Source: Deltaproteobacteria bacterium
GTDB taxonomy: Bacteria; Desulfobacterota; Desulfuromonadia; Geobacterales; DSM-12255
Direction of reading: 5' to 3'
Length of the DNA: 46,358 bases
Assembly: GCA_021849045.1 (NCBI GenBank)
Contig: JAJZTK010000012.1
Coordinates: forward strand, 1-46,358
Below are positions 14,201 to 46,120 of this stretch, one piece after another (position 1 is the first letter of the stretch; every line of letters starts with the position of its first letter). The notes beneath the pieces are model-generated. The model did not search any database and was not told where the DNA came from. It saw only the letters and a list, made by a program, of their open reading frames with translations. The translations under genes and the position numbers were made by a program.

Positions 14201-14236
14201 ACCTGCCGAACAGCTGTAACATTCGTCTGCTACTGT
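14201..14236 (+). promoter_or_regulatory. Recurrent EPS-locus element, copy B (partial)
   Basis: TGTAAC (14215-14220) is followed after 10 bp by TACTGT (14231-14236), matching the right half of the consensus. The left half is weak (ACCT at 14201). A second CGTAAC occurs at 14246. The element lies 42 bp upstream of the dehydrogenase start and is its likely promoter region. Confidence 0.4.
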
Positions 14237-26996: not shown

Positions 26997-28148
26997 ATGC
27001 ACATATTTATTACCATAGCTAGTATCGATCCGGCTGCGGGTGGGCCGTCCCGTTCTGTCCCCAACCTTGCACGCCAGCTCGCACGGTTGGGTATTTCCGT
27101 CCGATTGCAGTCGATCGGGAACTCGGCCGTAAGTGCTGGCAATGACGGCTATGCTCTCGAACTGTATTCGCATACAGGGACTGCGTTCAGCAAGCTGAAA
27201 GCGATTGTCAGCATGCGCCGTGACCTGTTGATCCAGGTGCGGGAACATGCCAACGGGGCGATCATTCACGATCAAGGCATCTGGCTGATGAATAACCATG
27301 TTGCGGTCGGGGTTGCCAGGAAGACCAAGACCCCGCTGATCGTGAGCACCAGAGGGATGCTCGAACCCTGGGCGTTTAATCACAAGGCTTTCAAGAAGAA
27401 AGTCGCCTGGCATCTGTATCAGAAAAGTGATCTCGATGCCGTGGACCTTTTCCATGCCACATCACCGCAGGAGGCGCAGCACATACTCGAAAGCGGATTT
27501 CAGAAACCGGTGGCGATGATTCCCAACGGAGTTGACGTCCCGGCTTGGCGGCAACGGACAGTGTCGCCGGCCGACCGGAAGACTATACTGTTTCTGTCAC
27601 GAATCCACCCGGTGAAGGGACTACTTAATCTTGTCGAAGCCTGGCAAAGTATCAAAGAACCCAATTGGCGGATTGTTGTCGCCGGACCCGACGAGGCAGG
27701 CCACAAAAAGGAAGTAATGACTGCAATAACAGCCGCTGGACTGCAGGACTGTTTCGAATTCGTCGGTCCTGTGGACGACACCGTAAAGTGGCAGTGGTTC
27801 TTTAATGCCGATCTGTTTGTATTGCCTTCATTTACCGAAAATTTCGGCATTGCCGTCGCTGAAGCGCTTGCCTGTGGCGTGCCGGTAATAACCACCACGG
27901 GAACTCCTTGGCAAGAGCTGGTTACCCATAAATGCGGTTGGTGGATCGACATCGGTGTAACGCCATTGGTCGAGGCACTGCGGGAGGCTATCGCCTTGTC
28001 GGATAAGGAGCGATCAGTTATGGGACAGCGCGGCCGAACGTTGGTCGAAAATGGATATTCGTGGGCAAAAGTAGGACAAGACATGGCCGAAGTCTATTCG
28101 TGGGTTCTTGGCAAGGGGCCAAAGCCTGAGAGTGTGCTTTCTCCATAG
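26997..28148 (+). CDS. Family 4 glycosyltransferase
   Basis: The 383-residue GT-B protein starts MHIFITIASIDPAAGGPSRS, typical of GT4 acceptor domains, with STRGMLEPWAFNHK, FLSRIHPVKGLLNL and FTENFGIAVAEALACGVPV. Several ATGs lie upstream in frame; this one is chosen for the match to the family start and its GAAGAGAG. Its donor sugar is unknown. It is followed after 21 bp by a GT2. Confidence 0.87.
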   Translation: MHIFITIASIDPAAGGPSRSVPNLARQLARLGISVRLQSIGNSAVSAGNDGYALELYSHTGTAFSKLKAIVSMRRDLLIQVREHANGAIIHDQGIWLMNNHVAVGVARKTKTPLIVSTRGMLEPWAFNHKAFKKKVAWHLYQKSDLDAVDLFHATSPQEAQHILESGFQKPVAMIPNGVDVPAWRQRTVSPADRKTILFLSRIHPVKGLLNLVEAWQSIKEPNWRIVVAGPDEAGHKKEVMTAITAAGLQDCFEFVGPVDDTVKWQWFFNADLFVLPSFTENFGIAVAEALACGVPVITTTGTPWQELVTHKCGWWIDIGVTPLVEALREAIALSDKERSVMGQRGRTLVENGYSWAKVGQDMAEVYSWVLGKGPKPESVLSP

Positions 28149-28169
28149 CATAATATTTAAAGGATAATT

Positions 28170-29075
28170 ATGAGCATTCAGGACTTATCCGTAATAATAC
28201 TGACATTCAATGAAGATATGCATATTGAAAGATGCATTGATAGTGTCAAATCTATTGCGAAACATATCTATGTTGTCGACTCATATTCATCGGACAGAAC
28301 TGTTGAGCTAGCGAAAGGCCTGGGTGCTCTAGTTTACCAGAATAAGTGGACGAACCATGCAATTCAGGTGAATTGGGCGCTCGACAATCTGCCCATCACT
28401 ACAAAATGGATTTTCAGACTCGATGCGGACGAATTTGTAACAGATGATTTAAGCAAGGAGATAAGCGAACGGATTTCCATACTTCATGAATCGGTGACAG
28501 GTATTTATCTGACCCGCAAAGTGTTTTTCATGGATCGATGGATCCGGCATGGAAGTTATTACCCGATCTCTTTCTTGAGAATCTGGAAGCACAGGCACGG
28601 CAGGTGTGAAGAGCGCTGGATGGATGAGCATATCAAGTTGACTGACGGGGATACAGTAAAATTTGAGTACGATTTTGTTGATGATAACAAGCGGAGTCTG
28701 GGGTGGTGGACGGAAAAACACAATGGCTATGCAACGCGCGAGGCGATCGAGACTCTTAATCTGAAATACAACTTGTTTGTATCGAATACGGTTGCCCCTG
28801 ACTTCTTCGGTACACAGGAACAGAGGAAGAGATGGCTCAAAATGGTATATATCAACATGCCTCTGTTCCTGCGGCCGATTCTGTATTTCAGTTACCGGTA
28901 CTTTTTGAAACTGGGATTTCTGGATGGAAAGGAAGGTCTGGTCTGTCATTTTCTCCAGGGCTTCTGGTACCGGTTCCTGGTGGATGCAAAAATTTACGAG
29001 ATCCGCCGCGCTGGTGGCAATGAACCAGAAGGTATACGACAAGCCTTGGGCGATATGTACTCAATAAAAATATAA
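28170..29075 (+). CDS. Family 2 glycosyltransferase (WaaE-like)
   Basis: The 301-residue protein has DLSVIILTFNEDMHIERCI, VVDSYSSDRTVELAK and the metal-binding LDADEF, and a C-terminal half with long amphipathic helices (LRPILYFSYRYFLKLGFLDG). The pattern resembles the WaaE/KdtX and related lipid-linked transferases. AAGGA precedes the ATG. It ends unit 2; a 172-bp gap with a putative promoter follows. Confidence 0.87.
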   Translation: MSIQDLSVIILTFNEDMHIERCIDSVKSIAKHIYVVDSYSSDRTVELAKGLGALVYQNKWTNHAIQVNWALDNLPITTKWIFRLDADEFVTDDLSKEISERISILHESVTGIYLTRKVFFMDRWIRHGSYYPISFLRIWKHRHGRCEERWMDEHIKLTDGDTVKFEYDFVDDNKRSLGWWTEKHNGYATREAIETLNLKYNLFVSNTVAPDFFGTQEQRKRWLKMVYINMPLFLRPILYFSYRYFLKLGFLDGKEGLVCHFLQGFWYRFLVDAKIYEIRRAGGNEPEGIRQALGDMYSIKI

Positions 29076-29077
29076 TT

Positions 29078-29147
29078 CCTTATCGTTTTTAACGCAACTA
29101 TTGCCCTTCTGTAACATCAGAGACATGTAGGTCAAGTATGTTTCCCA
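29078..29147 (+). repeat. 70-bp direct repeat, copy 1 (contains recurrent element C)
   Basis: This segment, from CCTTATCGTTTTTAAC to TATGTT plus five bases, recurs 1331 bp downstream at 30409-30478 with 9 mismatches and no gaps. It contains AACT at 29096, CC at 29104-29105 and TGTAAC at 29110-29115. A possible -10 box TATGTT (29137-29142) follows 21 bp after TGTAAC. It lies upstream of the acyltransferase-3 gene (start 29248) and probably acts as its promoter. Confidence 0.8.
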
Positions 29148-29247
29148 TATCAAAGTAATCCACTTTATTCTCTTGCCCGACAGGTAAGTTTGACTAACTC
29201 AATAATGGCGAAATAGTTCAGCTTCGTCCTTATTTTGAGGAGGGGAA

Positions 29248-30333
29248 GTGCTTGCTAATGCTTCGTTTATCGTGAAACAGCCTGATTCCATGCGAGGTGA
29301 TTCGCCCAATCTTGATCTGCTTCGTTCCTTAGCGGTGATCTTCGTAGTACTAAGCCACTTGCCGCCATTGGGTTTGATTATGGAGATGTATCACTATCAC
29401 CTCCAATCGCTAGGGCTTTTGGGTGTCATCATCTTCTTTGTTCATACTTGTCTTGTGCTCATGCTGTCACTCGAGCGCCAGACCGATACTCTTGGCGAGC
29501 AGCGGAGGGCCTCCCTGTTTTTCGTACGCCGGGCATTCAGGATCTATCCTCTGAGCGTTGTCGTAGTTCTCGTGGTCTCTGTGTTTGCAAAGGGTTCCGG
29601 TGCGGAACCGACTTATTCAACAATACTCAGCAATCTGCTGCTGATTCAAAACCTCAACGGGGAACCCTCGATCCCTGGAGCTCTATGGAGCCTACCTTTC
29701 GAGGTTCAAATGTATCTCGTCCTGCCCATGCTCTATTTGCTGGTCGTTCGTGCCGGCAAGACTGCTCTGTGGCGTGTATGCTTGCTTTGGCTTGGTTCAA
29801 TAGGGGTAATATTCACGCTCTATCGTCTTGGTTTGAATTACCATCTCTTAAAATACCTTCCATGCTTCTTGCCGGGGGTCATGGCATTTACGCTACGAAA
29901 GACCCCGCGTAAAGTTGCACCTTGGGCACTGTTCCTCTATGTCGGTTCGGTCGCGGTCATATACCCTTGGGCGGTCGCTTACGGGGTAAAGGAGAATATG
30001 TTAGCATGGCCTGTTTGCTTGGCACTGGGTCTCATCATTCCCTGGTGCCGGGAGATCGATGTGAGTTGGCTGCGAAGTACGGGGAAAGTCGTCGCCCGCT
30101 ACTCGTACGGCATCTATCTTGTTCATGGACCGTGTATCGACTTCGCGTTCAATTACCTCGGAGGTATGCCACCCTTACTGCAGTGGGGAAGCTTTATAGC
30201 CGCAACCGCAACGCTTTCGTATCTTGCCTACCATTGGATCGAAAAACCGGGTATTGATCTTGGCGGGAGGTTGGCTAAACGTTGGAGTCGCGGTATTGTG
30301 ACAGGCCTCGTGACCAATCAGGCGATTGACTGA
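29248..30333 (+). CDS. Acyltransferase-3 family membrane protein
   Basis: The 361-residue protein has the family start NLDLLRSLAVIFVVLSHL and then about ten membrane helices, with FFVRRAFRIYPL and LWSLPFEVQMYL as expected. Such proteins (OafA/NodX type) O-acetylate or otherwise acylate sugars of lipid-linked or surface glycans. A GTG start is chosen because GAGGAGG stands a few bases upstream. It stands alone between two copies of a promoter-like repeat, which suggests a gene plus promoter cassette. Confidence 0.87.
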   Translation: MLANASFIVKQPDSMRGDSPNLDLLRSLAVIFVVLSHLPPLGLIMEMYHYHLQSLGLLGVIIFFVHTCLVLMLSLERQTDTLGEQRRASLFFVRRAFRIYPLSVVVVLVVSVFAKGSGAEPTYSTILSNLLLIQNLNGEPSIPGALWSLPFEVQMYLVLPMLYLLVVRAGKTALWRVCLLWLGSIGVIFTLYRLGLNYHLLKYLPCFLPGVMAFTLRKTPRKVAPWALFLYVGSVAVIYPWAVAYGVKENMLAWPVCLALGLIIPWCREIDVSWLRSTGKVVARYSYGIYLVHGPCIDFAFNYLGGMPPLLQWGSFIAATATLSYLAYHWIEKPGIDLGGRLAKRWSRGIVTGLVTNQAID

Positions 30334-30408
30334 CCGTGCAGTCGCAGCAGAACCGGCCTTGCTTTCCTCGATTTCAAATCATTAAATTCATTCAAAAGTC
30401 CATCATCT

Positions 30409-30478
30409 CCTTATCGTTTTTAACCTAACTATTGCCCCCCTGTAACATCATATACATGTAGGTCAGGTATGTTCGCCA
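30409..30478 (+). repeat. 70-bp direct repeat, copy 2 (contains recurrent element D)
   Basis: This is the partner of 29078-29147, without gaps. AACT at 30427, CC at 30435-30436 and TGTAAC at 30441-30446 are kept, as is the possible -10 TATGTT at 30468-30473. It stands about 40 bp upstream of fnlA and is the likely promoter of the fnlABC-GT operon. Confidence 0.8.
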
Positions 30479-30516
30479 ATGTTCTCCTGAACAGTTGGAG
30501 ATTTGGAGGGTATGTT

Positions 30517-31551
30517 ATGTTCGCAGGAAAGACGTTACTGATCACTGGCGGCACTGGCACCTTCGGCAATGCTGTATTGCGCCGGTTTCTCGATACGGAG
30601 ATCAAAGAGATCCGCATTTTCAGCCGTGACGAAAAGAAGCAGGAAGATCTGCGGATCGAACTGGCCAATCCGAAGGTGAAGTTCTACATCGGGGACATCC
30701 GCAATTACGACAGTATCCTGCCGGCCATGCAGGGGGTGGACTATGTGTTCCATGCCGCGGCGCTGAAGCAGGTGCCGTCGTGCGAGTTCTTCCCCATGGA
30801 GGCGGTGCGGACCAATGACCTGGGGGCCGAGAACGTGATGAACGCGGCGCTGGCCTGTCAGGTGCGCAATCTTATTGTTCTCAGCACCGACAAGGCAGTC
30901 TATCCGATCAACGCCATGGGAATCAGCAAGGCAATGATGGAGAAGCTGATGGTGGCCAAGGCCCGCATGTACGGGAATACGTCCACTGTCTTTTGCGGCA
31001 CCCGCTACGGCAATGTGATGGCCTCTCGCGGGTCGGTAATCCCGTTGTTTCTCAAACAGATTCAGGAGGGGACGCCCCTGACGATAACCGATCCGAACAT
31101 GACCCGCTTCATGATGACCATCGATGATGCGGTGGACTTGGTGCTCTACGCCTTCGAGAACGGCAACCCAGGCGATATCTTTGTACAGAAAGCCCCGGCG
31201 GCCACCATCCATACCCTGGCCGAGGCGATGCTGCGGCTTTTCCACGTCAGTAACGAAGTCAGGGTTATCGGTACCAGACACGGCGAGAAGCTTTATGAGA
31301 CGCTCCTCAACCGGGAAGAGATGGCCAAGGCCGAGGATATGGGAGGCTACTACCGAGTGCCGGCCGACGTCCGGGATCTGAATTACAATTGTTATTTCGT
31401 GGAAGGTCAGGAGGATGTGTCGCACATCGAGGATTACAATTCGCACAATACCCAGCGCCTCGATGTCGATGGGATGATGGCTCTGCTGCTGAAGCTGGAT
31501 ATCATCAGGGATGCCATGAAAGAGGAGAGGGTGTACCGGTATGCCAGCTGA
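30517..31551 (+). CDS. fnlA: UDP-GlcNAc 4,6-dehydratase/5-epimerase (FnlA/WbjB/CapE)
   Basis: The 344-residue SDR enzyme has the cofactor motif TGGTGTFGNAV (10-20), AALKQVPSCEF and STDKAVYPINAMGISKAMMEK. In the last, the usual YxxxK is replaced by MxxxK, as known for the CapE/FlaA1 group. It starts L-FucNAc synthesis by oxidising and dehydrating UDP-GlcNAc with C5 inversion. GGAGGG with 6-bp spacing selects this ATG. The next two genes are the expected FnlB and FnlC, which makes the assignment firm. It overlaps fnlB by 11 bp. Confidence 0.93.
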   Translation: MFAGKTLLITGGTGTFGNAVLRRFLDTEIKEIRIFSRDEKKQEDLRIELANPKVKFYIGDIRNYDSILPAMQGVDYVFHAAALKQVPSCEFFPMEAVRTNDLGAENVMNAALACQVRNLIVLSTDKAVYPINAMGISKAMMEKLMVAKARMYGNTSTVFCGTRYGNVMASRGSVIPLFLKQIQEGTPLTITDPNMTRFMMTIDDAVDLVLYAFENGNPGDIFVQKAPAATIHTLAEAMLRLFHVSNEVRVIGTRHGEKLYETLLNREEMAKAEDMGGYYRVPADVRDLNYNCYFVEGQEDVSHIEDYNSHNTQRLDVDGMMALLLKLDIIRDAMKEERVYRYAS

Positions 31552-32677
31552 GACCACGGTGCTCGTGACAGGCAGCAACGGTTTTGTCGGTCGCAATCTG
31601 CGAGTGGCGTTATCCCGCCTTGCCGATGTCAGAATCCTCTGTTTTGACCTGGAGGATGATCAGCAGGTACTAGCCAGTCACCTGCAGGATGCGGACGTCG
31701 TGTTCCATCTCGCCGGCGTGAACCGGCCGCAGCACGTGGAGGAATTCACCACCGGGAATGCAGGACTTACGCAGACGATGGTCTCCCTGTTGGAGCAGCA
31801 GGGACGGACTCCTGCCATTGTCATGACGTCATCCACCCAGGCTGCGCTGGACAATCCGTACGGAGCGAGCAAGAAAGCGGCCGAAGAGAGCCTGTTCGAA
31901 TATGGCGCCAGGACCGGGGCTCCGGTGTACGTCTATCGGCTGACCAACGTGTTCGGCAAATGGTCGCGGCCCAACTACAACTCGGTGGTTTCCACGTTCT
32001 GCTACAATATTTCCCATGGGCTTGACATTACCATGTCCAATCCGGCCAACGAGGTGGAACTGATCTATATTGACGATGTGGTCGCGGAGTTCGTCGCCGT
32101 CCTTGATGGAAGAAGAGATGCTTCTGCCACGCGCCTCGGTGTGGGACCCACCTACCGGGTCACTCTGGCGGAACTGGCGGAGAGGATCCACCGGTTCCGG
32201 GAGATCCGCACCACCCTTGAAATACCGGACCTTGCCGATGACCTGACGAGAAAGCTGCACGCCACGTATCTCTCATATCTGGAACCGACCGATTTTTCCT
32301 ATCCGCTGGACATAAAGACCGACAATCGCGGTGACCTGGCCGAATTGATCAAGTCGGCACATTTTGGTCAGATGTTTGTCTCCCGGACACACGGGGGGAT
32401 TACCCGCGGCAATCACTATCACGACACCAAGATCGAAAAATTCTGCGTCCTGCAGGGGGAGGCGGCCATTCGGTTTCGCCACGTTTTCACGGAAGATATC
32501 ATCGAATATCGGGTTTCCGGGACCACGTGGGAGGTGGTGGATATCCCCCCGGGCTACACACACCACATTGAGAACCTCTCGGACCAGGAGATGATTGTTC
32601 TCTTCTGGGCCAATCGGATTTTCGACCCGCTGCAGCCGGATACCACTTATTGCGAGGTGAAAGGTGGACAGAATTAA
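31541..32677 (+). CDS. fnlB: UDP-FucNAc pathway epimerase/reductase (FnlB/WbjC/CapF)
   Basis: The 378-residue two-domain protein begins with an SDR domain ([10 protein letters not shown], 10-19; NPYGASKK with Y107/K111). It ends with a cupin domain (about 250-378) with metal-ligand candidates in [11 protein letters not shown] (H292, H294). This architecture is characteristic of CapF/WbjC, which epimerises at C3 (cupin) and reduces at C4 (SDR) the product of FnlA to give UDP-L-TalNAc. It overlaps fnlA by 11 bp and fnlC by 14 bp. Confidence 0.93.
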
Positions 32678-33797
32678 GGTTATGACCGTGGTCGGCACTC
32701 GACCGGAGATCATTCGCCTGTCGAGAGTGCTGGCCAAACTGGACAAGCACGCTGATCATCTGCTGGTGCATACCGGCCAGAATTATGACTATGAACTGAA
32801 CGAAATTTTCTTTGCTGACCTGGAGATCAGGAAACCCGACTATTTTCTGGAAGCGGCCGGGACGAATGCCGCCGAAACCATCGGCCAGACCATCATCAAA
32901 CTGGACCCGGTGCTGGAGAAGGAGTGCCCCGATGCCCTGCTGATCCTAGGGGATACCAACAGCTGCCTGGCGGCCATCCCGGCCAAGCGGCGAAAAATCC
33001 CCATCTTCCACATGGAGGCGGGTAACCGTTGTTTCGATCAGCGTGTGCCGGAGGAGATCAACCGGAAGATCGTTGACCATATCAGCGACATCAACCTACC
33101 CTACAGCGTCATTTCGCGGGAGTATCTGCTGCGCGAGGGACTTTCCCCGGACAGGGTGATCAAGACCGGCAGCCCGATGTACGAGGTGTTGCACTACTAC
33201 CTTCCCAAGATCGAGCACTCTGCTGTTCTTGAGCAACACGGATTGCAGCCCCGGAACTACTTTGTCGTCAGTTGCCATCGGGAGGAAAACGTTGATTCCG
33301 AACGGAATCTTGATCGTTTTCTCGCAGTTCTGGAGAACCTTGTTGCCGAGTATGGCAAACGCGTAATCGTCACGACCCATCCGCGCATGAGGAAACGGCT
33401 GGAAACACGCGGCGCGCAGCTTGACCGGCGGATCGAACTGCACAAACCGTTCGGCCTGACGGACTATGTAAAACTGCAGATGCATGCGTACGCGGTGTTG
33501 TCGGACAGCGGCACCATCAACGAAGAATCGTCGATTCTCAATTTTCCGGCAGTGAACATCCGTGAGGCTCACGAGCGGCCGGAAGGGATGGAAGAAGGGG
33601 CAGTAATGATGACCGGCCTCGATTGGCAAACAGTCCATCAGGCACTGGAGATTCTGAAGACTCAGGGGCGGGGTAACGAGCGGACTCTGCAACTGGTGGA
33701 GGATTACAGCGTGCCGAACGTGTCTGACAAAATCATCCGTATCATCCTGAGCTATACGGAATATGTAAATCGCACCATCTGGCGTAAACACTGTTGA
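32664..33797 (+). CDS. fnlC: UDP-N-acetyl-hexosamine 2-epimerase (FnlC/WbjD/CapG)
   Basis: The 377-residue WecB-like protein has [46 protein letters not shown] and [11 protein letters not shown], all hallmarks of the 2-epimerase fold. In the order fnlA-fnlB-fnlC it performs the last step, UDP-L-TalNAc to UDP-L-FucNAc. GTG 32664 with GAGG upstream is preferred; ATG 32682 is a possible alternative. The product is the donor for the next GT4. Confidence 0.93.
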
Positions 33798-35271: not shown

Positions 35272-36873
35272 ATGGATACCAGTCGAACAGCAGTAATGTG
35301 CAGCAGCAGGTTACGACAAGGGGGACTGTCTCCCCAAGCCATTGTCTACGTTACACTCTGTGCCGTACTGTTCGCCATTCTCTACCAACCCGTGTATCAG
35401 GTGATGGTGACTTGGTGGGGAGGGGAAGATTATAACCACTGCTATTTCGTGCCGTTGATCGTTCTCTATCTCATCTGGGAGAAAAGGTCTGAACTTGGCC
35501 GGACCGCGTCGTATCGTTCATGGTTGGGGCTGGTGCCACTACTGGTCGGGATTGCCTGTTACTGGCTCGGAGAGTTGGGCGGAGAGTTCTACATCATCGA
35601 CCTCTCTTCCTGGCTGGTCATGTTCGGTGCGGTCTGGATCTATCTGGGGTGGCGCAAACTGAAGATTATCACGTTTCCGCTCGCGTTCCTGATCGCCATG
35701 TTCCCGTTTCCGAATTTCATCAACAATAACCTGACGTTAAAGCTCAAGCTCATCTCTTCGCAACTCGGTGTACTCATGTTGCACGCGTACGGTTTGAGCG
35801 CCTATCGCGAAGGGAATGTCATTGATCTCGGTTTTACCCAATTGCAGGTGGTGGATGCTTGCAGTGGGCTTCGGTATTTCCTTCCGCTGATCATTCTCGG
35901 TATTTTGCTGGCCTATTTTTTCAAGGCCCCTTGGTGGAAAAGGATGCTCCTGGTGCTGGCGGCGGTTCCCGTGTCGATCATTACCAACAGTCTGCGGATC
36001 GCCTCGGTGGGGGTGTTTTATCAATTCATGGGCGCCAGTGCTGCTGAAGGATTTTTCCATGACTTCTCCGGGTGGCTTATCTTCATGGCCAGTCTGGCGA
36101 TGTTGTTGCTGTTAATGATCATCCTCAAGCGGATTCCCGGCGGGCGAGTGAATAGTGTCCCCTCTTCAAGTCAGGCGGCAGACAGAGCGGTGGTAGAAGG
36201 CATACCGGACAGACCGCCCGTCAGAGGCTTTTCGTTTGTACTCATGGTGCCGGTACTGATTCTGGGGAGCACCATCGCCGTTTCGGCAAATGTTGATTTT
36301 CGAGAGAAAATCCCACTCAAGACATCGTTTGCCTCTTTCCCTGAACAGGTTGGCGAATGGCGCGGGTCCCGACAGGTCATGGAGAAGATCTACCTCGATG
36401 AACTCGGTCTCTCCGACTATGTGATTATGGATTACCGTAACGGTTCCGGACGCCAGATCAATCTGTACACGGCCTATAACGCAAGCCAAATTAAAGGGAA
36501 ATCGTCCCACTCGCCGTCAAGCTGCCTCCCGGGAAATGGCTGGGAATTCAAGAATTCGGGCGATGCCTCGATTCCCCTGCAAAACGGATCGTCACTGATT
36601 GTCAATCGGGCGCTGATCGAAAAGAATGCGCAACGACTGCTAACCTACTACTGGTTCCCGCAGCGAGGCCGTGTATTGCATAACCTCGTAGAACTGAAAT
36701 TTTACAATTTTTGGGATGCGTTGACTAAGCGGAGGACTGACGGCGCACTCGTCAGGATCATGACCCCGGTTGAACAGAATGAAACCATTCAGGACGTTGA
36801 TCGCCGTTTGCAGCGGTTCGTCCAGGAATTCATGCCGGTTCTCGATCGGTTCCTACCTGGAAAAGATGTCTGA
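35272..36873 (+). CDS. Exosortase fused to EpsI domain
   Basis: The 533-residue protein has an N-terminal exosortase with about eight membrane helices and the catalytic set Cys197 (VVDACSGLRYF), Arg242 (NSLRIASVG) and His263 (GFFHDFSGW). After about residue 290 comes a periplasmic EpsI domain (FPEQVGEWRG, ASQIKGKSSHSPSSCLPG, LTYYWFPQRGR). Fusions of this kind are known for XrtD-type (VPLPA-CTERM) and related exosortases; the exact subtype is not certain here. The enzyme cleaves C-terminal sorting tags of exported proteins and is usually found with EPS genes. AAGGAG precedes the ATG by 11 bp. Its stop overlaps the next tiny ORF (ATGA-type). Confidence 0.92.
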   Translation: MDTSRTAVMCSSRLRQGGLSPQAIVYVTLCAVLFAILYQPVYQVMVTWWGGEDYNHCYFVPLIVLYLIWEKRSELGRTASYRSWLGLVPLLVGIACYWLGELGGEFYIIDLSSWLVMFGAVWIYLGWRKLKIITFPLAFLIAMFPFPNFINNNLTLKLKLISSQLGVLMLHAYGLSAYREGNVIDLGFTQLQVVDACSGLRYFLPLIILGILLAYFFKAPWWKRMLLVLAAVPVSIITNSLRIASVGVFYQFMGASAAEGFFHDFSGWLIFMASLAMLLLLMIILKRIPGGRVNSVPSSSQAADRAVVEGIPDRPPVRGFSFVLMVPVLILGSTIAVSANVDFREKIPLKTSFASFPEQVGEWRGSRQVMEKIYLDELGLSDYVIMDYRNGSGRQINLYTAYNASQIKGKSSHSPSSCLPGNGWEFKNSGDASIPLQNGSSLIVNRALIEKNAQRLLTYYWFPQRGRVLHNLVELKFYNFWDALTKRRTDGALVRIMTPVEQNETIQDVDRRLQRFVQEFMPVLDRFLPGKDV

Positions 36874-36959
36874 TGCTTCTGCTGTCGACGTTGCTGCTGC
36901 CGGTGACCGTCGTTCTAACGCTATACTTTTGCTGCTATAACACAATGAGAGGATATTAA
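36873..36959 (+). CDS. 28-residue single-helix membrane peptide ORF
   Basis: The start codon overlaps the exosortase stop (TGATG), which favours translational coupling. The product begins MLLLSTLLLPVTVVLTLYFC and ends CYNTMRGY. It is hydrophobic over about 20 residues and has two adjacent cysteines, like a small membrane subunit. No family is recognised. It may help the exosortase or may be just a coupling ORF; its end lies 4 bp before the next ATG. Confidence 0.4.
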   Translation: MLLLSTLLLPVTVVLTLYFCCYNTMRGY

Positions 36960-36963
36960 TGCC

Positions 36964-37335
36964 ATGAGCAATACTCCCACTTCAGTAGCATTCAAGTACG
37001 TCTTCCGGTACGACTACAACCCCGTCTATGTGAACGGTGCCCATGGCGGTGTTTCGCCCCGTGGCGACTTGGTGGTCAATTTCTATCTGGAGCGGCAGCC
37101 ACTTCCCAACGAACTCACCCACGGCATCAACCCGGACGGCGGCATCGGCAATGTGGTGGCCGTCGATCCTGAAGACCTCAACACCAGCATTGTCCGCTTC
37201 GTTTCCAACGGAGTGGTTCTCAATTACCAGAATGCGAGAGACATCCACCAGTGGCTCGGCGACAAGATCGCAGAAATGGAACGGTTGGCCCAGGCCAGGT
37301 TGGAAGCTGCAGGGCAGAGCAGCCCGGCACACTGA
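36964..37335 (+). CDS. Hypothetical protein, 123 residues
   Basis: The soluble, slightly acidic product starts MSNTPTSVAFKYVFRYDYNP. It contains an HGGVSPRGDLVVNFYLERQPLP segment and an LGDKIAEMERLAQARLEA helix near the end. No signal peptide or membrane helix is seen. I cannot name a family. The gene lies between the exosortase and the initiating transferase, is preceded by GAGAGGA and follows the tiny ORF by 4 bp, so it is probably in the same operon. Confidence 0.7.
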   Translation: MSNTPTSVAFKYVFRYDYNPVYVNGAHGGVSPRGDLVVNFYLERQPLPNELTHGINPDGGIGNVVAVDPEDLNTSIVRFVSNGVVLNYQNARDIHQWLGDKIAEMERLAQARLEAAGQSSPAH

Positions 37336-37354
37336 TGAAAAACAAGAGTAGCCA

Positions 37355-37401
37355 AACCTTCACCTCCCTGTAACACGGAATAAATACTCTGCCGGTATAC
37401 T
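37355..37401 (+). promoter_or_regulatory. Recurrent EPS-locus element, copy E
   Basis: AACC (37355), CC (37363-37364) and TGTAAC (37369-37374) match the consensus. Two possible -10 boxes follow: TACTCT (37385-37390) after 10 bp and the better TATACT (37396-37401) after 21 bp. It is placed 20 bp after the hypothetical gene and should start the WecA-type/PrsT transcript. Confidence 0.55.
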
Positions 37402-37548
37402 CCGCCTTATTAATGCATGTCAGCCACAATGTTCATCTGCCAATGTCTTCGCAGAGGCTACGTTTTCGACGCTTTCGAAACGTATGTCTCTGCAGACACC
37501 CTCTGGAACCGGATTTTATTCATGAAAGCAGATAAGGAGGCCGCTGTC

Positions 37549-37725
37549 ATGACCTCGGCACCGCAGATCAGTTCGGAAAGCTGGCTCAATCACCTTGTCT
37601 ATGGTGCCAGCCAGGCCAAGGTGGCGACGGTCAGCACCTTTCAATCACTGACTGGAATTTCGAGTAATCGGGAGACGTTCCCGACTTTGCTTGACACATT
37701 TCTCCACGGGAAGGTCTCCCGATGA
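37549..37725 (+). CDS. Small protein of 58 residues coupled to the initiating transferase
   Basis: AAGGAGG (37534-37540) stands 8 bp before this ATG. The stop overlaps the start of the following transferase gene as ATGA, so translational coupling is likely. The product (MTSAPQISSESWLNHLVYGASQ... in part) is hydrophilic, without signal or membrane helix, and no family is recognised. An upstream start at 37417 would give 102 residues but lacks a ribosome-binding site. A leader of about 150 bases would precede the chosen start. Confidence 0.55.
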   Translation: MTSAPQISSESWLNHLVYGASQAKVATVSTFQSLTGISSNRETFPTLLDTFLHGKVSR

Positions 37726-39350
37726 TCTTTCTGTCGACCCTGCTCCTCGCCGTCCTGATTACCATCGCCACGACCCCGCTCCTTTCGGCGCTGGCGATTC
37801 GGTTCAATGTGGTCGATCTCCCCGGCGAGCGCAAGGTGCATACCCTGCCCATTCCCCGCATCGGCGGTATTGCCATGGCCTGCGGTGCGTTCGTGCCCCT
37901 TCTGTTCTGGAACTATGCTGATCGCTTCGTCATATCCTACCTGTGCGGTGCGGCGGTGCTGGTTTTTTTCGGCCTGCTGGACGACCTGCGGGACCTGTCT
38001 CCCAAGATCAAGTTTCTCGGACAGATCGTGGCTGCACTGATCGTTATCCTGGCCGGGGGGGTAGAGATCCGTTCTCTCGGCACCCTGCTGCCCGACGCCT
38101 GGCAACTTCCCTCTCTCATCTCCATACCCTTGACGCTCGTGGCCATTGTCGGCGCCACCAATGCCATCAATCTGGCCGACGGCCTGGATGGTCTCGCCGG
38201 TGGTATCAGTCTGCTTGTCTTTACCGGCATCGGCTATCTTTCCTATGTGGAAGGGAACCAGATGGTCGGTCTCATCTCCCTGGCCCTGGCCGGAGTCATC
38301 TTCGGATTCCTCCGTTTCAATACCCATCCTGCCTCCATATTCATGGGGGATGCAGGAAGCCAGTTCCTGGGGTACTCGGCTGCTACTCTGGCCATTGCCC
38401 TGACCCAGCAACAGACCACGCTGAGTCCGGTACTCCCGCTGCTGCTCCTGGGCGTGCCTGTTCTGGACACCCTGACCGTGATGGTTACCCGCATAGCACA
38501 AGGGCGGTCTCCGTTCTCGGCCGATAAGAATCATTTTCACCACCACCTGCTACGACTCGGCCTCCATCAGTCGGAGTCCGTGGTGGTCATCTACGTCCTG
38601 CAGACCCTGCTGGTCGTCACTGCGGTCCTCTGCCGCTATCATTACGACTGGCTGCTCCTTATCGGCTACCTCTGCTTTTCCGCCGTCGTGCTAATGGTGT
38701 TTCATCGTGCCCGCCAGGCCGATTGGCGGCCACGGCGCATCGATTTCTTCGATATCAGGATTGCCGGCCGGCTGAGGATGCTGAAGCGGGAAGGGCACCT
38801 CATCAAGGCCTCGTTCCCGATCTTCGAGTTCGGTATCCCTCTGCTCCTGCTTTTTACCTGCTGGACCGCCATCAAGATTCCGCTGTATGTCTCGCTGGTC
38901 GCATGGGGCATGGCCCTTCTGATCGTGCTGTCCTGGCTGTTCTGGAAAATGCGGCTTGAGGCGGCGCTCCGCATCTCCCTGTACCTGCTGATCCCTTTTG
39001 CCATCTACCTGAGCGATCTTCAACACGTCAAGTGGCTGGAAGGTGCGGGGCGTGCATTCTACAACATGTCTTTCGGCATCTTTGCCGTGCTCATCATCCT
39101 CATTTCCAAGTTCTCCCGGCGGAAAAACGGATTCAGAAGTTCCCCCATGGATTTCCTCATCCTGATTCTCGCCGTGGCTGTTCCCAATATGCCGGATCAG
39201 ATGATTCAGGAATACCGGATTGGCCTGATCGCGGCAAAGATCATCATGCTTTATTTCAGCTATGAAGTCCTGCTGGCTGAGTTGCGCGGCAGATTCAGCC
39301 TGATTGCGGCAACAACGGTGGCTTCGCTCGTGGTTCTGGCGTGCCGCTGA
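37722..39350 (+). CDS. WecA/MraY-type undecaprenyl-phosphate sugar-1-phosphate transferase with C-terminal extension
   Basis: The 542-residue membrane protein has the family motifs in order: LLDDLRDL (Asp87-Asp88), NAINLADGLDG (147-157), FMGDAGS (207-213) and HFHHHL (271-276). It transfers a HexNAc-1-phosphate from a UDP-sugar to undecaprenyl phosphate, the first step of repeat-unit assembly. Typical WecA proteins have about 350-370 residues; here about 170-200 extra residues with several membrane helices follow (IPLLLLFTCWTAIKIPLYVSL in part). It is the only initiating transferase in the window. Confidence 0.92.
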   Translation: MIFLSTLLLAVLITIATTPLLSALAIRFNVVDLPGERKVHTLPIPRIGGIAMACGAFVPLLFWNYADRFVISYLCGAAVLVFFGLLDDLRDLSPKIKFLGQIVAALIVILAGGVEIRSLGTLLPDAWQLPSLISIPLTLVAIVGATNAINLADGLDGLAGGISLLVFTGIGYLSYVEGNQMVGLISLALAGVIFGFLRFNTHPASIFMGDAGSQFLGYSAATLAIALTQQQTTLSPVLPLLLLGVPVLDTLTVMVTRIAQGRSPFSADKNHFHHHLLRLGLHQSESVVVIYVLQTLLVVTAVLCRYHYDWLLLIGYLCFSAVVLMVFHRARQADWRPRRIDFFDIRIAGRLRMLKREGHLIKASFPIFEFGIPLLLLFTCWTAIKIPLYVSLVAWGMALLIVLSWLFWKMRLEAALRISLYLLIPFAIYLSDLQHVKWLEGAGRAFYNMSFGIFAVLIILISKFSRRKNGFRSSPMDFLILILAVAVPNMPDQMIQEYRIGLIAAKIIMLYFSYEVLLAELRGRFSLIAATTVASLVVLACR

Positions 39351-39382
39351 CAATAGCAATAGAAACGATAAGGAGAGATTGC

Positions 39383-41368
39383 ATGCGGAAACGAATTGCC
39401 CGGTTGGGCCTTGTGCTGTTGGTAAGCGTGTCGCTGGTGGCATGTAGCGGGCCGGAAGCGAAGAAGGCCAAGTTCCTCGCCAAGGGGAAGAGTCTGTATG
39501 AAAAGGGGGAGTACACCAAGGCCAGACTTGAGTTCAAGAATGCCGTGCAGATCGACCCCAAATATGCTGACGCCTATCGGATGCTCGGCTACGTCGCGCT
39601 CAAGGAAGGAGATCTCAAGGGGGCGTACGCCAGTTTCAGCAAGGCGGCGGAACTGAACCCGGCCGATCTCGATGCCCATTATCAGGTCGGGAAGATCTTT
39701 CTCGGCGCGGGAGATCCTGACAAGGCGCTTGAAAAGGCGGAGTTGATCCTGAAGAAGGACCAGGGTCACGTTGATGGGCAGTTGCTGAAAGGGGCGGTCT
39801 ATGTGGCACGAAAGGAACATACCAAGGCTATCCCCTTTCTGGAGGGGCTGATCGCCAAAGGTATACAGAAGCCCGATGCCTTTCAGTTGCTGGCTTCCAG
39901 CTATCTGTTGAATAAAGACCTGAAGAGCGCCGAAGCAACCCTTGCAAAGGGAGTGGCTGCCAACCCGAAATCGGCCGGTTGCCTCCTCTTGCTGGCGGAA
40001 TTAAAGGCGAACACCGGCAAGGTTGACGAGGCGGTTACCCTGGTAAAACAGCTTATCGCCCTGGAACCGGCCGAGGCGCGGCACACCATCACCCTGGCGA
40101 ACCTCTACTGGGGGTCGAAACAGGAGGCGAAAGCCGTTGAAACGGTCAAGGCCTATGTTGCCGCCGCACCGCAGGACGAGGAGCGGCGTCTGCAGGTTGC
40201 CGGTTTCTACCTCGCCAGGAACAAGCCGGAGGACGTGGAGCAGGTGCTCAAAGAAGGGGCCGGCCAGATTCCGAAGGGTTTCCAGGTCCGTTTCGCCTTG
40301 AGCGAGCTGTATGCCAACCAGAACAAGCCCGACCAGGCGATTGAGGTGCTGAAGCAGGTCCTTGCCCGGGAAAAGGATTTTACCAAGCCGGACCTCATCA
40401 CGACCAGGAGCACCCTGGCGAAGATCTATCTCGTACGGCGCGATCTGACCACTGCCACGAAGTACGTGGATGAGGTGATCAAAGAAAGTCCCAAGAATGT
40501 AGAGGCACACTTCACCAAGGGCGAGATTCACATGCTCAAAGGGGAAGGGGCCAATGCGGTCACCGAATTCAGGAGCGTTGTCACCGAAAACGAAAAATTC
40601 ACCCAGGCCCATGTCCGGCTGGCCGAGGCCCACCTGCTCAACAAGGAGCCGGCACTGGCCCTGGACGGACTGAAGACGGCCCTCAAGGCGACGCCGGATG
40701 CACGCGACCTGCAGCGGGCCATAGCCAGGGCATATCTGTCGCAGAAGGACCCGAAATCGGCAGAGGAGACGTTGACCAGGATACTTGCAAGGAATCCGGC
40801 GGACCTGGAAGTCCTGTCCGACCTGGGTGATTTTTACCTGCGGACCGGTGACCTGAAAAAAGCCGAGACCCGTTTTGGCGAACTGAAGCGAAAGGCGCCC
40901 CAGCTGCCGATCGGTTACGTTAAATTCAGCGAGCTGTACATCGTGCAGGGAAAGATGGACAGAGCCCAAGCGGAACTGGAACAGGCCTACAGGCGTAATC
41001 CCGAGTCCTGGCGCGTGGCCAACGACCTGGCATACCTGTTGTGCGAAACGTCGCGGTCGGCCAAGGAACTGGACCGGGCAGAGTCGCTTGCAAAGAAGGC
41101 CCAGCTGCTGAAACCCGAGGGTTTGACCGTCTCCGACACACTTGGATGGATCTACTACAAGAAAGGGGACTTCAAGCAGGCAATGGAACTGATCGGCAAG
41201 GTGCAGGCGAGCGCACCGAAGAATCCGGTCATCAACTTCCATCTCGGCATGGTGCGGTACAAGGCCGGTGATCGCGCCAAGGCAAAGGAAAGTCTGACCC
41301 TGGCTCTGGCCGGGAAAGAACCATTCCCCGGCAGGGATGAAGCCGAACGTACCCTGAAGAGTTTGTAA
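39383..41368 (+). CDS. prsT: PrsT-like TPR lipoprotein of PEP-CTERM/EPS systems
   Basis: The 661-residue protein has a lipoprotein signal (LGLVLLVSVSLVACSG, lipobox Cys about residue 21) followed by tandem TPR repeats along its full length (for example SLYEKGEYTKARLEFKNAVQ, and later LGWIYYKKGDFKQAMELIGK). This matches the PEP_TPR_lipo (PrsT) type, usually close to 900 residues, so this copy is shorter. It is likely a periplasmic scaffold at the outer membrane for polysaccharide export. AAGGAGAG precedes the ATG. It follows the transferase gene by 32 bp. Confidence 0.87.
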   Translation: MRKRIARLGLVLLVSVSLVACSGPEAKKAKFLAKGKSLYEKGEYTKARLEFKNAVQIDPKYADAYRMLGYVALKEGDLKGAYASFSKAAELNPADLDAHYQVGKIFLGAGDPDKALEKAELILKKDQGHVDGQLLKGAVYVARKEHTKAIPFLEGLIAKGIQKPDAFQLLASSYLLNKDLKSAEATLAKGVAANPKSAGCLLLLAELKANTGKVDEAVTLVKQLIALEPAEARHTITLANLYWGSKQEAKAVETVKAYVAAAPQDEERRLQVAGFYLARNKPEDVEQVLKEGAGQIPKGFQVRFALSELYANQNKPDQAIEVLKQVLAREKDFTKPDLITTRSTLAKIYLVRRDLTTATKYVDEVIKESPKNVEAHFTKGEIHMLKGEGANAVTEFRSVVTENEKFTQAHVRLAEAHLLNKEPALALDGLKTALKATPDARDLQRAIARAYLSQKDPKSAEETLTRILARNPADLEVLSDLGDFYLRTGDLKKAETRFGELKRKAPQLPIGYVKFSELYIVQGKMDRAQAELEQAYRRNPESWRVANDLAYLLCETSRSAKELDRAESLAKKAQLLKPEGLTVSDTLGWIYYKKGDFKQAMELIGKVQASAPKNPVINFHLGMVRYKAGDRAKAKESLTLALAGKEPFPGRDEAERTLKSL

Positions 41369-41463
41369 CACGTGTGAAGGTTACGACACGCCTTTTTGCT
41401 TCTGTGCCAGTCAGGAAACGGCCGACTAACGACGCTATTTCCCCGGTAATGAAATATTAAGCC

Positions 41464-41499
41464 AACTGCCACCGGAATGTAACATTTCGCTGGTATGAT
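41464..41499 (+). promoter_or_regulatory. Recurrent EPS-locus element, copy F
   Basis: AACT (41464), CC (41472-41473) and TGTAAC (41478-41483) fit the consensus exactly, and TATGAT (41494-41499) follows after 10 bp. The predicted transcript starts near 41505, 50 bases before the export gene ATG. It is the cleanest copy. Confidence 0.6.
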
Positions 41500-41553
41500 G
41501 CATAGTTGTCCGGCCCGTAACAGGGCCTTAACCTAAATCAGCAGGTGAAAGTT

Positions 41554-42372
41554 ATGTTCAGCAAAGGTTTTCAGACCGTTCTTATCCTGGCACTGGCACT
41601 GCTTACGGCAGCCGGGTCCTACCGCGATGTAGCGTTGGCCAATGACAAGCCGGCTGTAGAGGCGGAAGAAAACGGGCAAGCTGCCGAGCAGAACGTCGAT
41701 CAGGCCGCTGCCGATAACGTTTCGCCGGAGGCTGAGGCAGCCGCTCCCGCAGCAAAAGAGGAGATCGAAACTGCTCCCGCAGCGCGGAAGGGAGCGTTGT
41801 TCTGGGACAAGGTCCTGTCCGTCGTGGGCCTTCACGAAGAAAAACCGTTCAAACCAGACCAGGTGGGAGGCGCACCATCAGGACCCGACCAGGACTACGT
41901 CATCGGTCCTGGTGACCAGCTCGGCATTACGGTCTGGCGGGACGATACGCTGACCAAGACCGTTCTGGTCCTGCCCGACGGCAAGATTCAGTTTCCGCTG
42001 ATCGGGGAGATGGTTGCTGCGGGCAAGACCGTTGCCAAGCTGAAGAAGGAACTGGAAGAAAAACTGACCGGTTACGTGGTGGATGCCGGTTTGACGGTGG
42101 AGGTCCGGCAGTCGAACAGCCTGTTCGTGTACCTGATCGGGAAGATCAATGCCCCCGGGCGGCAGATGCTCCTGGCGAACACCAACGTGCTGCAGGCACT
42201 GGCCATGGCCGGCGGGCTCAATCCATTCGCGGACAAGGACGATATCCGGATCTTTCGTCAGGAAGATGGCAAAACCTTGATCTTTCCGTTCAGATATACC
42301 CTGGTCTCGGCGGGAAACAATCTCGAGGAGAATATCTGGCTCAAGCGGGGCGACGTGATCGTTGTTCCGTAA
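41554..42372 (+). CDS. Wza/EpsE-type polysaccharide export protein
   Basis: The 272-residue protein has a signal peptide (GFQTVLILALALLTAAGSYRD in part), then a variable Ala/Glu-rich linker (about 30-85). A Poly_export domain follows (DYVIGPGDQLGITVWRDD), then a SLBB-like segment (VYLIGKINAPGRQMLL, LQALAMAGGLNPFADKDD). No lipobox cysteine is seen, unlike classical Wza. It should form the periplasmic/outer-membrane export conduit for EPS. AGGTGA at 41543-41548 favours ATG 41554 over the in-frame GTG at 41545. Confidence 0.9.
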   Translation: MFSKGFQTVLILALALLTAAGSYRDVALANDKPAVEAEENGQAAEQNVDQAAADNVSPEAEAAAPAAKEEIETAPAARKGALFWDKVLSVVGLHEEKPFKPDQVGGAPSGPDQDYVIGPGDQLGITVWRDDTLTKTVLVLPDGKIQFPLIGEMVAAGKTVAKLKKELEEKLTGYVVDAGLTVEVRQSNSLFVYLIGKINAPGRQMLLANTNVLQALAMAGGLNPFADKDDIRIFRQEDGKTLIFPFRYTLVSAGNNLEENIWLKRGDVIVVP

Positions 42373-42382
42373 CGGAAAGCCA

Positions 42383-43633
42383 ATGATATTCTTCAGAAAA
42401 GGAAGCAGGACAAGGGATGGTGCCGTCCCGGGTGGTGGAGCGGTACGGCTGTTGTTGATTGCCGGCATCGTGCACCTGGCAGCGGGTATGTCCGTTGCCA
42501 GGGCCGACGAGATCAAGGTGACGCCTGCGGTTGCTGTCAGCGAAGAGTTCAACGACAATATCCTCTTCTCGACCATCACCCAAAAGAGCGATGTTGTCAC
42601 AACGCTTTCACCGTCACTGGAGCTGGCCGATAACTCGGCACGGCACAACCTGAGCATTCTTGGCGGCATCAACTGGCTGACGTATGCGAAGACGGCCAAT
42701 CTCGACTCCCTTGATTACCAGTACCGCGGCCAGGCAGGATACCGGCTTTCATCGCTGACAGAACTCAGCGCCTCGGGGGCCTATGTCAGGAATTCGCGGC
42801 CTGATTCGATCAACCAAGTGACCATGCTTTCGTCCAGTTCCGGGAGCGATCGTTACAATTACGCGTTCAGCGCCAGCCGGAAATTGGACGAGCTGACTAG
42901 CGGGACACTTTCCTACTCCTATTCCAGTGCAACATACGATAACCCGACACTTTTGGGGAACAAGGTGCACACCGCCGGCATGGCGGTCAACAGGAACTTC
43001 GGAAATCTGCTTACCGGTGCGGCCAGTGCCGGTTACAGCCGAAATATCTATCGCGATTCGCAGAGCGATGACTATTCGCTCGGCATCGGCTCCAGCTGGC
43101 AGCAGAGCGAGCATTTCTCCTGGAATGCCTCGGTCGGGGGGAGATTCACCCATTCGTCTTTTCTGGTGCAGCAACAGGCGACGGCTACGACAGCCCAGGC
43201 GACCAACGACAACTGGGGGATTACGGGCCTCCTCTCCCTTGCCTATACGGGCGAAAAAAACCGCGCAACGCTCTCCTTCGTCCGGGACTTTACGGCTGCC
43301 TCCGGCCAGATCGGGGCCACGGAGCGAACCCAGGTGGGACTCACGTTGGGGAGACAGTTTCTGGAGAAGTTTGCGGGCCAGGCTGCCATTACTTACACCA
43401 TCAACAGTTCGCCGGGCGGCCAGTTTTCGGCCCAGGGGGCTGAGGACAAGGCAATTCGTTGCAGCGCCGATCTGGATTACGAGATTTCCCGGCATTTAAG
43501 TGTGGGACTGCGCTACTCCTTCTATCGCATCGACTACAGTCCGAGCAACCAGAGCGCGGTGCAGAACATGGTGCTTATGCAGGCCAATTGGAAATACCCG
43601 GTTGACAGGTTCGTATTCATAGAAAACAAGTGA
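42383..43633 (+). CDS. PEP-CTERM-associated outer-membrane beta-barrel protein
   Basis: The 416-residue protein has a signal sequence (RLLLIAGIVHLAAGMSVARA) and then repeated amphipathic beta strands starting AVSEEFNDNILFSTI. This opening and the Ser/Tyr-rich strands (LSYSYSSATYDNP, LGIGSSWQQSEHFSW) match a beta-barrel family found beside PEP-CTERM chain-length and kinase genes. It could serve as the outer-membrane pore for EPS. It follows the exporter by 10 bp. Confidence 0.82.
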   Translation: MIFFRKGSRTRDGAVPGGGAVRLLLIAGIVHLAAGMSVARADEIKVTPAVAVSEEFNDNILFSTITQKSDVVTTLSPSLELADNSARHNLSILGGINWLTYAKTANLDSLDYQYRGQAGYRLSSLTELSASGAYVRNSRPDSINQVTMLSSSSGSDRYNYAFSASRKLDELTSGTLSYSYSSATYDNPTLLGNKVHTAGMAVNRNFGNLLTGAASAGYSRNIYRDSQSDDYSLGIGSSWQQSEHFSWNASVGGRFTHSSFLVQQQATATTAQATNDNWGITGLLSLAYTGEKNRATLSFVRDFTAASGQIGATERTQVGLTLGRQFLEKFAGQAAITYTINSSPGGQFSAQGAEDKAIRCSADLDYEISRHLSVGLRYSFYRIDYSPSNQSAVQNMVLMQANWKYPVDRFVFIENK

Positions 43634-43642
43634 GGCCGATTC

Positions 43643-45205: not shown

Positions 45206-45253
45206 CGCTATCAAAAACTTGACCTGCCAGTCTTACGCGGAGGATTTTTGCAT

Positions 45254-46120
45254 ATGGCAAACATTGAGCGATTGTCGCAATTGAGGAAGAAGATTCAGAA
45301 AAATCCAGTTGCGGTACCCGACGAGCAGTCCCTTGATGAGACGCTGGTCGCAACCGAAAGTACATGCGTACCGTCGGTCGAGCAGGAGGAGCAGCCTGCT
45401 GTCGATCGGGAGAAGCTGGGATGGTTTTCGCCCAAATATTCCGTTTCACGGTCCGTCACCCTTTCTCCTGAGGTGGTTACGGCCAACCGGGGGGTGGTCT
45501 TTGCCGGTGAAGGGATGACCCTCGATGCCTATAAGATCCTGCGTACCCAGATTCTCCAGAGGATTCAGCAGGACGGCGGCAATTCACTCATGGTGACCAG
45601 TGCCGTCCAGGGCGAGGGGAAGACGACGACGGCAATCAACCTGGCGTTTGTGCTGGCCAAGGAGTTCCAGCAGACGGTTCTCCTCGTCGACTGCGATCTG
45701 CAACAGCAGCAGATCCACAAGCGTCTGGGCTACGGCAGCGATCAGGGGCTGATCGATTACCTCCTGGACGACCGGCCGGTCACGGAGTTGATCACCTGGC
45801 CGGGGATCGAAAAGATCACGATCATTTCGGGGGGGAGAACCATCAAGGAGAGCAGCGAACTGCTCGGTTCTCCCCGCATGAAAGAGCTGATCGAGGATAT
45901 GAAGACCAGGTATCCCGGGCGGTTCGTCATCTTCGACGTGCAGCCGATCACCACCGGTGCCGATGCCCTGGTGTTCGCCCCGCTGGTTGACCATGTGCTC
46001 ATGGTGGTGGCCGAGGGAAAGACATCGATTCAGGATGTCAAGCGGGCAGCGGGGATGCTTCCCGATGACAAGCTGCTCGGGCTCCTGTTGAACAGGCACG
46101 GAGTGGGAAAGGTGGTATAA
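45254..46120 (+). CDS. BY-kinase/CpsD-like ATPase of the PEP-CTERM EPS system
   Basis: The 288-residue protein has a hydrophilic N-terminal leader (about 1-80), then the Walker A SAVQGEGKTT (116-125), Walker A' TVLLVDCDL (141-149) and Walker B RFVIFDVQ (223-230). It matches the tyrosine autokinase partner of the chain-length protein in PEP-CTERM EPS loci. The usual C-terminal tyrosine cluster is absent: the protein ends NRHGVGKVV. Cys147 stands where most BY-kinases have Ala in the DxD Walker A' motif. GGAGGA precedes ATG 45254; an in-frame TTG at 45248 is less likely. Confidence 0.88.
   Translation: MANIERLSQLRKKIQKNPVAVPDEQSLDETLVATESTCVPSVEQEEQPAVDREKLGWFSPKYSVSRSVTLSPEVVTANRGVVFAGEGMTLDAYKILRTQILQRIQQDGGNSLMVTSAVQGEGKTTTAINLAFVLAKEFQQTVLLVDCDLQQQQIHKRLGYGSDQGLIDYLLDDRPVTELITWPGIEKITIISGGRTIKESSELLGSPRMKELIEDMKTRYPGRFVIFDVQPITTGADALVFAPLVDHVLMVVAEGKTSIQDVKRAAGMLPDDKLLGLLLNRHGVGKVV

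Follow-up and report, generated by a model that had tools for sequence, protein, structure and literature searches.

We find that a 71-bp direct repeat, which stands once before and once after a single acyltransferase gene in the polysaccharide locus of a deltaproteobacterium of the Geobacterales, is best read (at roughly 80% probability, by our own estimate) as a PhoB-activated promoter. Its right-hand copy would be the conserved promoter of the fnlABC genes, and its left-hand copy a duplicate that places the horizontally acquired acyltransferase gene under the same control. Taken alone, the duplication is of modest interest; what deserves testing is the phosphate control that we predict for the exosortase system encoded nearby. 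The window analysed is the whole stretch of 46,358 nucleotides, and positions are counted from its first letter.

A repeat search of the window returned copy 1 at 29078-29147 and copy 2 at 30409-30478, with nine mismatches in 70 positions, no gap and a spacing of 1331 bp, exactly as the first-pass annotation had reported; one extra matching base at the left brings the repeat to 62/71 identical positions (29077-29147 and 30408-30478, both on the + strand). The borders are sharp: 10/30 bases match just upstream and 7/30 just downstream. One base lies between the stop codon of the preceding GT2 gene and copy 1, and the statement that the copies bracket exactly one gene also held, as the single complete gene between them is an acyltransferase-3 gene by Pfam (29248-30333). 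The repeat finder ranked this repeat second in the window, after an unrelated 154-bp direct repeat of 92% identity (2838-2991 and 3891-4044), of which one copy lies where a peptidylprolyl-isomerase-like gene ends and the other upstream of the ORF at 4050. Searching the organism's own draft genome (271 contigs, estimated 99.7% complete) gave the two copies only, the next matches having E values of 2.2 and 4.2; we accordingly rejected a genome-wide repeat family. A transposon footprint was also considered and rejected: the annotated neighbours of the repeat and the acyltransferase gene include no transposase. Usual target-site duplications are much shorter than 71 bp.

When copy 2 was used as the query against 117 genomes (own genome included), weak matches of about 30 bases of the core each were found in three genomes of another family. 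All three adjoin a PhoR/PnpS-type kinase gene (in L006 and L008 the name comes from NCBIfam, in L007 from inspection of a fragment by eye), and two of the three (L007, L008) lie directly before pstS. We therefore gathered pstS upstream regions from relatives, and built a 55-column Pho matrix from 42 of 44 distinct regions; the organism's own pstS was excluded, while the almost identical pstS promoter of G001, a genome of the same genus, was kept in the training set. Across the 46-kb window copy 2 ranks first (30419-30473, score 23.8) and copy 1 second (29088-29142, 18.4), and the top score in 100 simulated windows with the dinucleotide frequencies of the window was 3.2 (mean maximum -9.9, s.d. 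4.2). The organism's own pstS and phoB promoters score 25.5 and 29.4, both above the two copies.

The repeat has the layout TTAACNNAACT-ATTGCCCNNCT-GTAACATCANA-NACATGTAGGT followed by TATGTT; as in pstS promoters, an 11-bp unit occurs four times ahead of a -10 element. The half-sites occupy 29089-29132 in copy 1 and 30420-30463 in copy 2; both are followed by CAAG/CAGG-TATGTT, with the -10-like hexamer at 29137-29142 and 30468-30473, in a register that matches the pstS sites of relatives. The fourth half-site is weak in both copies (GACATG/TACATG). PHO boxes are defined by 11-nt direct repeat units in the part of PMC4415409 available to us, and both copies have such tandem half-sites upstream of a -10 element, with scores that are like those of known Pho genes and above background. 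The genome also encodes the corresponding regulators: contig C199 carries together pstS (TIGR02136, above cut-off), a PnpS/PhoR-like kinase (above the PnpS cut-off, below the PhoR cut-off) and a PhoB-like regulator whose best model is PhoB, at 246 bits, short of the 296 that NCBIfam sets as the equivalog cut-off. Thus the first-pass annotation's duplicated promoter is borne out and can be specified further by the Pho matrix; in both copies it looks like a PhoB-type promoter, as predicted from these features, and not a generic one.

The gene between the copies (29248-30333, + strand) has a GTG start behind GAGGAGGGG and encodes an acyltransferase-3 protein (Acyl_transf_3, Pfam PF01757, 8.6e-28), with 97.8 bits against a gathering cut-off of 31. 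We found no relative of it at E <= 1e-20 in 116 related genomes, and none at 1e-30 in 394 other genomes of the phylum, a sample which partly overlaps the first. Nine loci were found in a named genome collection, the nearest being in Massilia sp. 9I (51%), then a Betaproteobacteria MAG (48%) and seven Acidobacteria (34-40%). The Massilia relative has no obvious polysaccharide cluster around it, as judged by eye from its neighbouring genes, and none of the nine loci has a site scoring at least -5, a weak result since the matrix comes from another phylum. No donor of a promoter-acyltransferase unit was seen in the sets of 117 and 395 genomes (overlapping, own genome included). The G+C content of the gene is unremarkable (51.3%, with a window mean of 54.6%). 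By these comparisons the acyltransferase is foreign to the phylum sample, and a horizontally acquired gene is what its distribution indicates. We predict that it provides an O-acyl decoration of the polysaccharide of the locus; position inside a polysaccharide locus is no proof that the enzyme acts on that polymer.

Which copy is the older was judged from the fnlA junction in relatives. A close fnlA, defined at E <= 1e-175, is found in five of 141 genomes of the order (this one, G069, G072, G087 and G134; each species is represented by one genome), and in four of the five a Pho site lies directly before it, scoring 23.8 here, 18.3 in G087, 16.7 in G069 and 8.4 in G134; G072 has the close fnlA and no Pho box before it. 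The acyltransferase is absent from the junction in all four other genomes, its absence being genome-wide in G069, G072 and G087 and read from two stretches only (10 and 13.5 kb) in G134. In the stretches read, G087, G069 and G134 each show a single Pho site upstream of fnlA and lack the acyltransferase; a second Pho site of G069 lies before xrtD and is like copies 1/2 at 25/55 positions. The left neighbour of the promoter is a dehydrogenase gene (G069), an endonuclease/phosphatase-family gene (G087) or a large ORF (G134), so that the left-hand gene differs in all four promoter-bearing genomes. The single fnlA-adjacent site in three relatives, with varied genes to its left, marks copy 2 as the conserved fnlA promoter and copy 1 as its derived duplicate, as far as sequence comparison can order them; identity with the fnlA promoters of the other genomes is 38-43/55 for copy 1 and 36-43/55 for copy 2.

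Several other explanations of the repeat need to be weighed against this. It might be no more than a generic sigma-70 promoter, or else an RNA leader or an antitermination element of the JUMPstart/ops type: JUMPstart/ops elements occur upstream of polysaccharide genes in enterobacteria, and the repeat does lie upstream of such genes and does contain a -10-like hexamer. We consider this improbable, as the window contains neither the ops core GGCGGTAGNNT nor a JUMPstart core, the Rfam matches in 28000-31000 are two in number, below threshold and off the repeat, and the resemblance to pstS promoters is strong and specific. Still less credible, and in our view very nearly negligible, is that the copies are independent Pho boxes which are alike through the constraint that PhoB imposes. 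A common consensus within a genome would favour this, and the copies do agree in 29/32 informative columns. However, they agree also in 19/23 weakly constrained columns, where seven other listed pairs of window sites agree in 5-9/23, and in 11/11 bases just upstream of the box; over the whole box they match at 48/55 positions, a level reached by 1/100,000 simulated independent pairs, while either copy matches the four other window sites at 22-32/55. The agreement in weakly constrained and flanking bases, with an overall similarity so rare in simulation, thus argues for duplication and not convergence.

The likeliest of the alternatives, although an unlikely one, is that the direct repeats are recombination sites across which the acyltransferase is lost or gained, making decoration a population-level switch. 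The copies are in direct orientation, 1331 bp apart, with a single gene between them which is missing from the other genomes searched, and deletion would leave one promoter before fnlA. But the copies are only 87% identical, no identical run between them exceeds 17 bases, and their sequence is accounted for as promoter. The junction proposed in the first-pass annotation as a check, GT2 gene-one promoter-fnlA without the acyltransferase, is present in none of the four other close-fnlA genomes; G069 has a GT2 orthologue, then three other genes, then the promoter, and the left-hand genes vary as described above. Nor was the opposite arrangement seen, in which all relatives would keep both repeats and the gene, as the other four genomes have no such gene there. 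The suggested insertion of a gene together with its own promoter comes out as the favoured history, supported by the four relatives without the acyltransferase and by the foreign character of the gene; the order of events is inferred.

On the PhoB-promoter reading, the four head-to-tail 11-bp half-sites would replace a -35 element, with TATGTT as the -10 element. Under phosphate starvation PhoR would phosphorylate PhoB, and PhoB~P would bind copies 1 and 2, so that copy 1 drives the acyltransferase and copy 2 drives fnlABC, the two being induced together. A polymer with an L-FucNAc-type sugar would then be made and O-acylated in the same physiological state. The computation establishes the repeat, its Pho-type architecture, the duplication, the foreign gene and the single-copy promoters of three relatives; we infer that PhoB binds here, that starvation induces the genes, that this polymer is the one O-acylated, and how the structure arose. 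As to origin, either: a promoter-gene unit could have integrated by a single crossover, which at the resident promoter would yield the observed structure; or the gene could have been inserted with duplication of the promoter.

The GT2 gene lies to the left of the repeat-bounded gene, and to its right follow fnlA-, fnlB- and fnlC-like genes, a glycosyltransferase gene and xrtD, all four named genes on the + strand. The fnlA-like gene (30517-31551; UDP-GlcNAc 4,6-dehydratase/5-epimerase) is assigned by Pfam and by TIGR04130 as best NCBIfam model, at 568 bits and so below its cut-off of 730. Its first in-frame ATG (30469) lies inside copy 2, and the likely start is at 30517, behind GGAGG. The fnlB-like reductase gene (31541-32677) has 427 bits for NF047837, below the cut-off of 500, and the fnlC/wecB-like gene for a non-hydrolysing UDP-GlcNAc 2-epimerase (32664-33797) has 231 bits for TIGR00236, above its cut-off of 210. 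FnlA is 87-90% identical to the proteins of four genomes of other families; for FnlB the figures are 49-53% with three of these genomes and 76% with the fourth, G072. The high identity of FnlA and lower identity of FnlB suggests a mosaic operon across 30517-32677.

The exosortase gene xrtD (35272-36873; VPLPA-CTERM type) may itself be a newcomer. The window is collinear with G001 at 36941-37600 and 37689-46259, and the G001 xrtD (about 1.5 kb) is missing from between these blocks; a small ORF at 37417-37725 resembles the joined ends that a deletion within a resident xrtD would leave. The xrtD of the window has 53% identity with that of G001, and seems to have arrived with the variable cassette.

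Further Pho-type sites occur in the window. Six in all score at least 8.7, every one on the + strand, and five of the six lie upstream of genes: those for a nucleotide-sugar dehydrogenase, the acyltransferase, fnlA, the xrtD remnant plus a WecA-like gene, and an export gene. Beyond copies 1 and 2 these are at 14182-14236 (score 14.4, before the dehydrogenase gene at 14278); at 37347-37401 (12.9), where the matching place in G001 also has a site (16.3); at 41445-41499 (16.4), before the polysaccharide export gene at 41545, a position that roughly half of the loci examined share; and at 46190-46244 (8.7), at the right contig end. This last site is identical in G001, in which no + strand gene of at least 120 aa lies near downstream, and perhaps it serves a small gene or an RNA, or is decaying. 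A borderline Pho-like site on the + strand at 13218-13272, before a WecG/TagA-family gene (13316), scores -3.1, within the range of simulated windows.

As background, 20 other stretches of the organism's own genome (233,644 bases) contained no Pho site, with a top score of -6.15. The control from other genomes was unclean, with 12 sites of at least 3.2 in three of ten stretches (L182, L187 and L188). L182 holds an alkaline phosphatase gene; L187 (G087, C58:60000-79900) combines genes for polyphosphate kinase and a PhoB-like regulator with the export half of that genome's own EPS system; and L188 holds a binding-protein-like gene, barely above its Pfam cut-off. We read these as true Pho loci, a reading made afterwards; the Pho-type genes are clear in L182 and L187. 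The export half in L187 (WecA-PrsT-export-Wzc) adjoins the regulator and polyphosphate kinase genes, with five Pho sites of at least 9.9.

In G001 a subtilase-like gene comes after the locus corresponding to 46190-46358, and the organism's own copy stands at the beginning of contig C199 (850-3138). This gene has a Pho site directly upstream in the own genome, G001, G087 and G134, and not in G069. The contig of the window (C8) probably joins C199, on which pstS is at 23863 and phoB at 26721, and the EPS locus would thus lie about 24-27 kb from the phosphate regulators.

We propose, as an even chance and no better, that the XrtD exosortase/exopolysaccharide system is a PhoB-controlled matrix regulon in this order, taking in sugar supply, export, exosortase and sorted cargo, while the other exosortase type stays with PrsK and sigma-54. 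Pho promoters would also form module boundaries, and a single duplication would suffice to bring a foreign decoration gene into the starvation programme. The exosortase of the window belongs to the XrtD type, with 590.7 bits for TIGR04152 (cut-off 400), and VPLPA-CTERM proteins are present in the genome (six matches, two above cut-off). XrtD above the TIGR04152 cut-off is found at 20 loci in 19 of 141 genomes of the order. Scanning stretches around the 19 XrtD loci of the 18 other genomes gave a Pho site of at least 3.2 in 12/18; two of these 12 (G009 and G019) have weak sites, unplaced relative to any gene, and none was found in the stretches around XrtD of G072, G092, G066, G008, G070 and G021.

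Most telling is the gap just upstream of the export gene, where a site of at least 3.2 is present in 10/20 loci read: this genome, G001, G087, G088, G090, G106, G086, G020, G042 and G006. These 20 loci include the window, two beside sub-cut-off exosortases (that of G006 is itself below the XrtD cut-off) and two copies from G070. The automatic scan gave 9/20, G042 (25.5) being added from a separate scan; G069 falls just under the threshold (2.7). In the same set, the upstream stretches of PrsT and Wzc have no site above -6 on the coding strand; the stretches taken were over-long for PrsT of G009 and for xrtD of G069. We predict that the XrtD/exopolysaccharide system is under Pho control; roughly one in two of the loci read has sites in corresponding positions.

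Loci with exosortases below the XrtD cut-off present a different picture. Nine of ten such loci were examined for Pho sites, which were found in one of nine stretches (G006), and PrsK lies within 10 kb of six of the ten. PrsK (E <= 1e-60) is on the XrtD contig in 0/20 loci, where distances are uncertain since the genomes are drafts. In the organism's own genome PrsK is on contig C260 and the XrtD locus on C8, and so PrsK is not found near this exosortase.

The predicted XrtD cargo may share the same control. The best VPLPA-CTERM protein of the genome (L192; contig C65, 1495-2451, minus strand) has two Pho sites about 0.45 and 0.56 kb upstream (8.8 and 37.5), the stronger of which exceeds the organism's own pstS and phoB sites. 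G008 has a distant homologue of the gene (38% over 76 residues), and some 140 bases upstream of this homologue lies a site scoring 13.9. The other five VPLPA-CTERM matches, one of them above cut-off, have no flanking site of at least -5.

If XrtD loci do answer to phosphate, one signal that triggers systems of the PEP-CTERM kind would be directly testable in culturable members of the order, and surface polymer and protein sorting would be linked to phosphorus limitation. The duplication also illustrates well how a decoration gene gained by horizontal transfer can be wired into an existing programme via a copy of its neighbour's promoter.

Among known systems, the closest in architecture are PHO box promoters, which, in the part of PMC4415409 available to us, have tandem 11-nt direct units, head to tail, as here; the organism's own pstS and phoB promoters are of the same type. 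The half-site of the repeat differs, being (C/T)TGTAACA/TTAACC-like and not CTGTCAT; in our locus two copies of the promoter flank a single gene, and sites of this type recur among polysaccharide genes. In the available text of a study of Desulfovibrio vulgaris (PMC3333781) the PhoB repeat is (c/t)GT(n)AC, near the GTAAC units of our repeat; the PEP-CTERM/EPS regulator mapped there is DVUA0057, and the PhoB targets which that text names omit the PEP-CTERM/EPS locus. The acyltransferase resembles OafA-type enzymes in being an Acyl_transf_3 (Pfam) membrane protein of a family which, in the source text available, O-acylates carbohydrates, but it is a stand-alone AT3 domain and has no close relative in the genomes searched.

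Surface polymers made under phosphate shortage have precedents. Pho control of the teichuronic acid genes is known from Bacillus subtilis, where it is exerted by PhoP. That polymer, too, is made when phosphate is short, according to the available part of PMC4415409, as we propose here; it is, however, a phosphate-free Gram-positive wall polymer. The PEP-CTERM/EpsH exosortase systems of Haft 2006 (PMC1569441) combine, in the portion of that paper to hand, exosortase, EPS genes and PrsT in one locus, as here; the stimulus of PrsK, the kinase of these systems, "remains obscure" there, and further regulators are still to be found. Those systems are under PrsK/PrsR and sigma-54, whereas the XrtD loci carry Pho sites and have no PrsK on the contig (0/20). 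Exosortase and phosphate starvation are treated apart in the part of PMC2907700 available to us, and among the matches listed from the open-access literature no title or abstract opening tied an exosortase locus to the Pho regulon.

To our knowledge, the galactoglucan (EPS II) system of Sinorhizobium meliloti includes no exosortase. In that organism phosphate limitation turns on the exopolysaccharide cluster via PHO boxes, as described in the accessible part of PMC3131613, in which WggR acts with PhoB; both polymer and phylum differ from ours. Since low-phosphate control of exopolysaccharide is thus known in S. meliloti, the logic of the regulation that we predict is a familiar one, and it is the link of an exosortase to phosphate control, as suggested by the sites at XrtD loci, that looks new.
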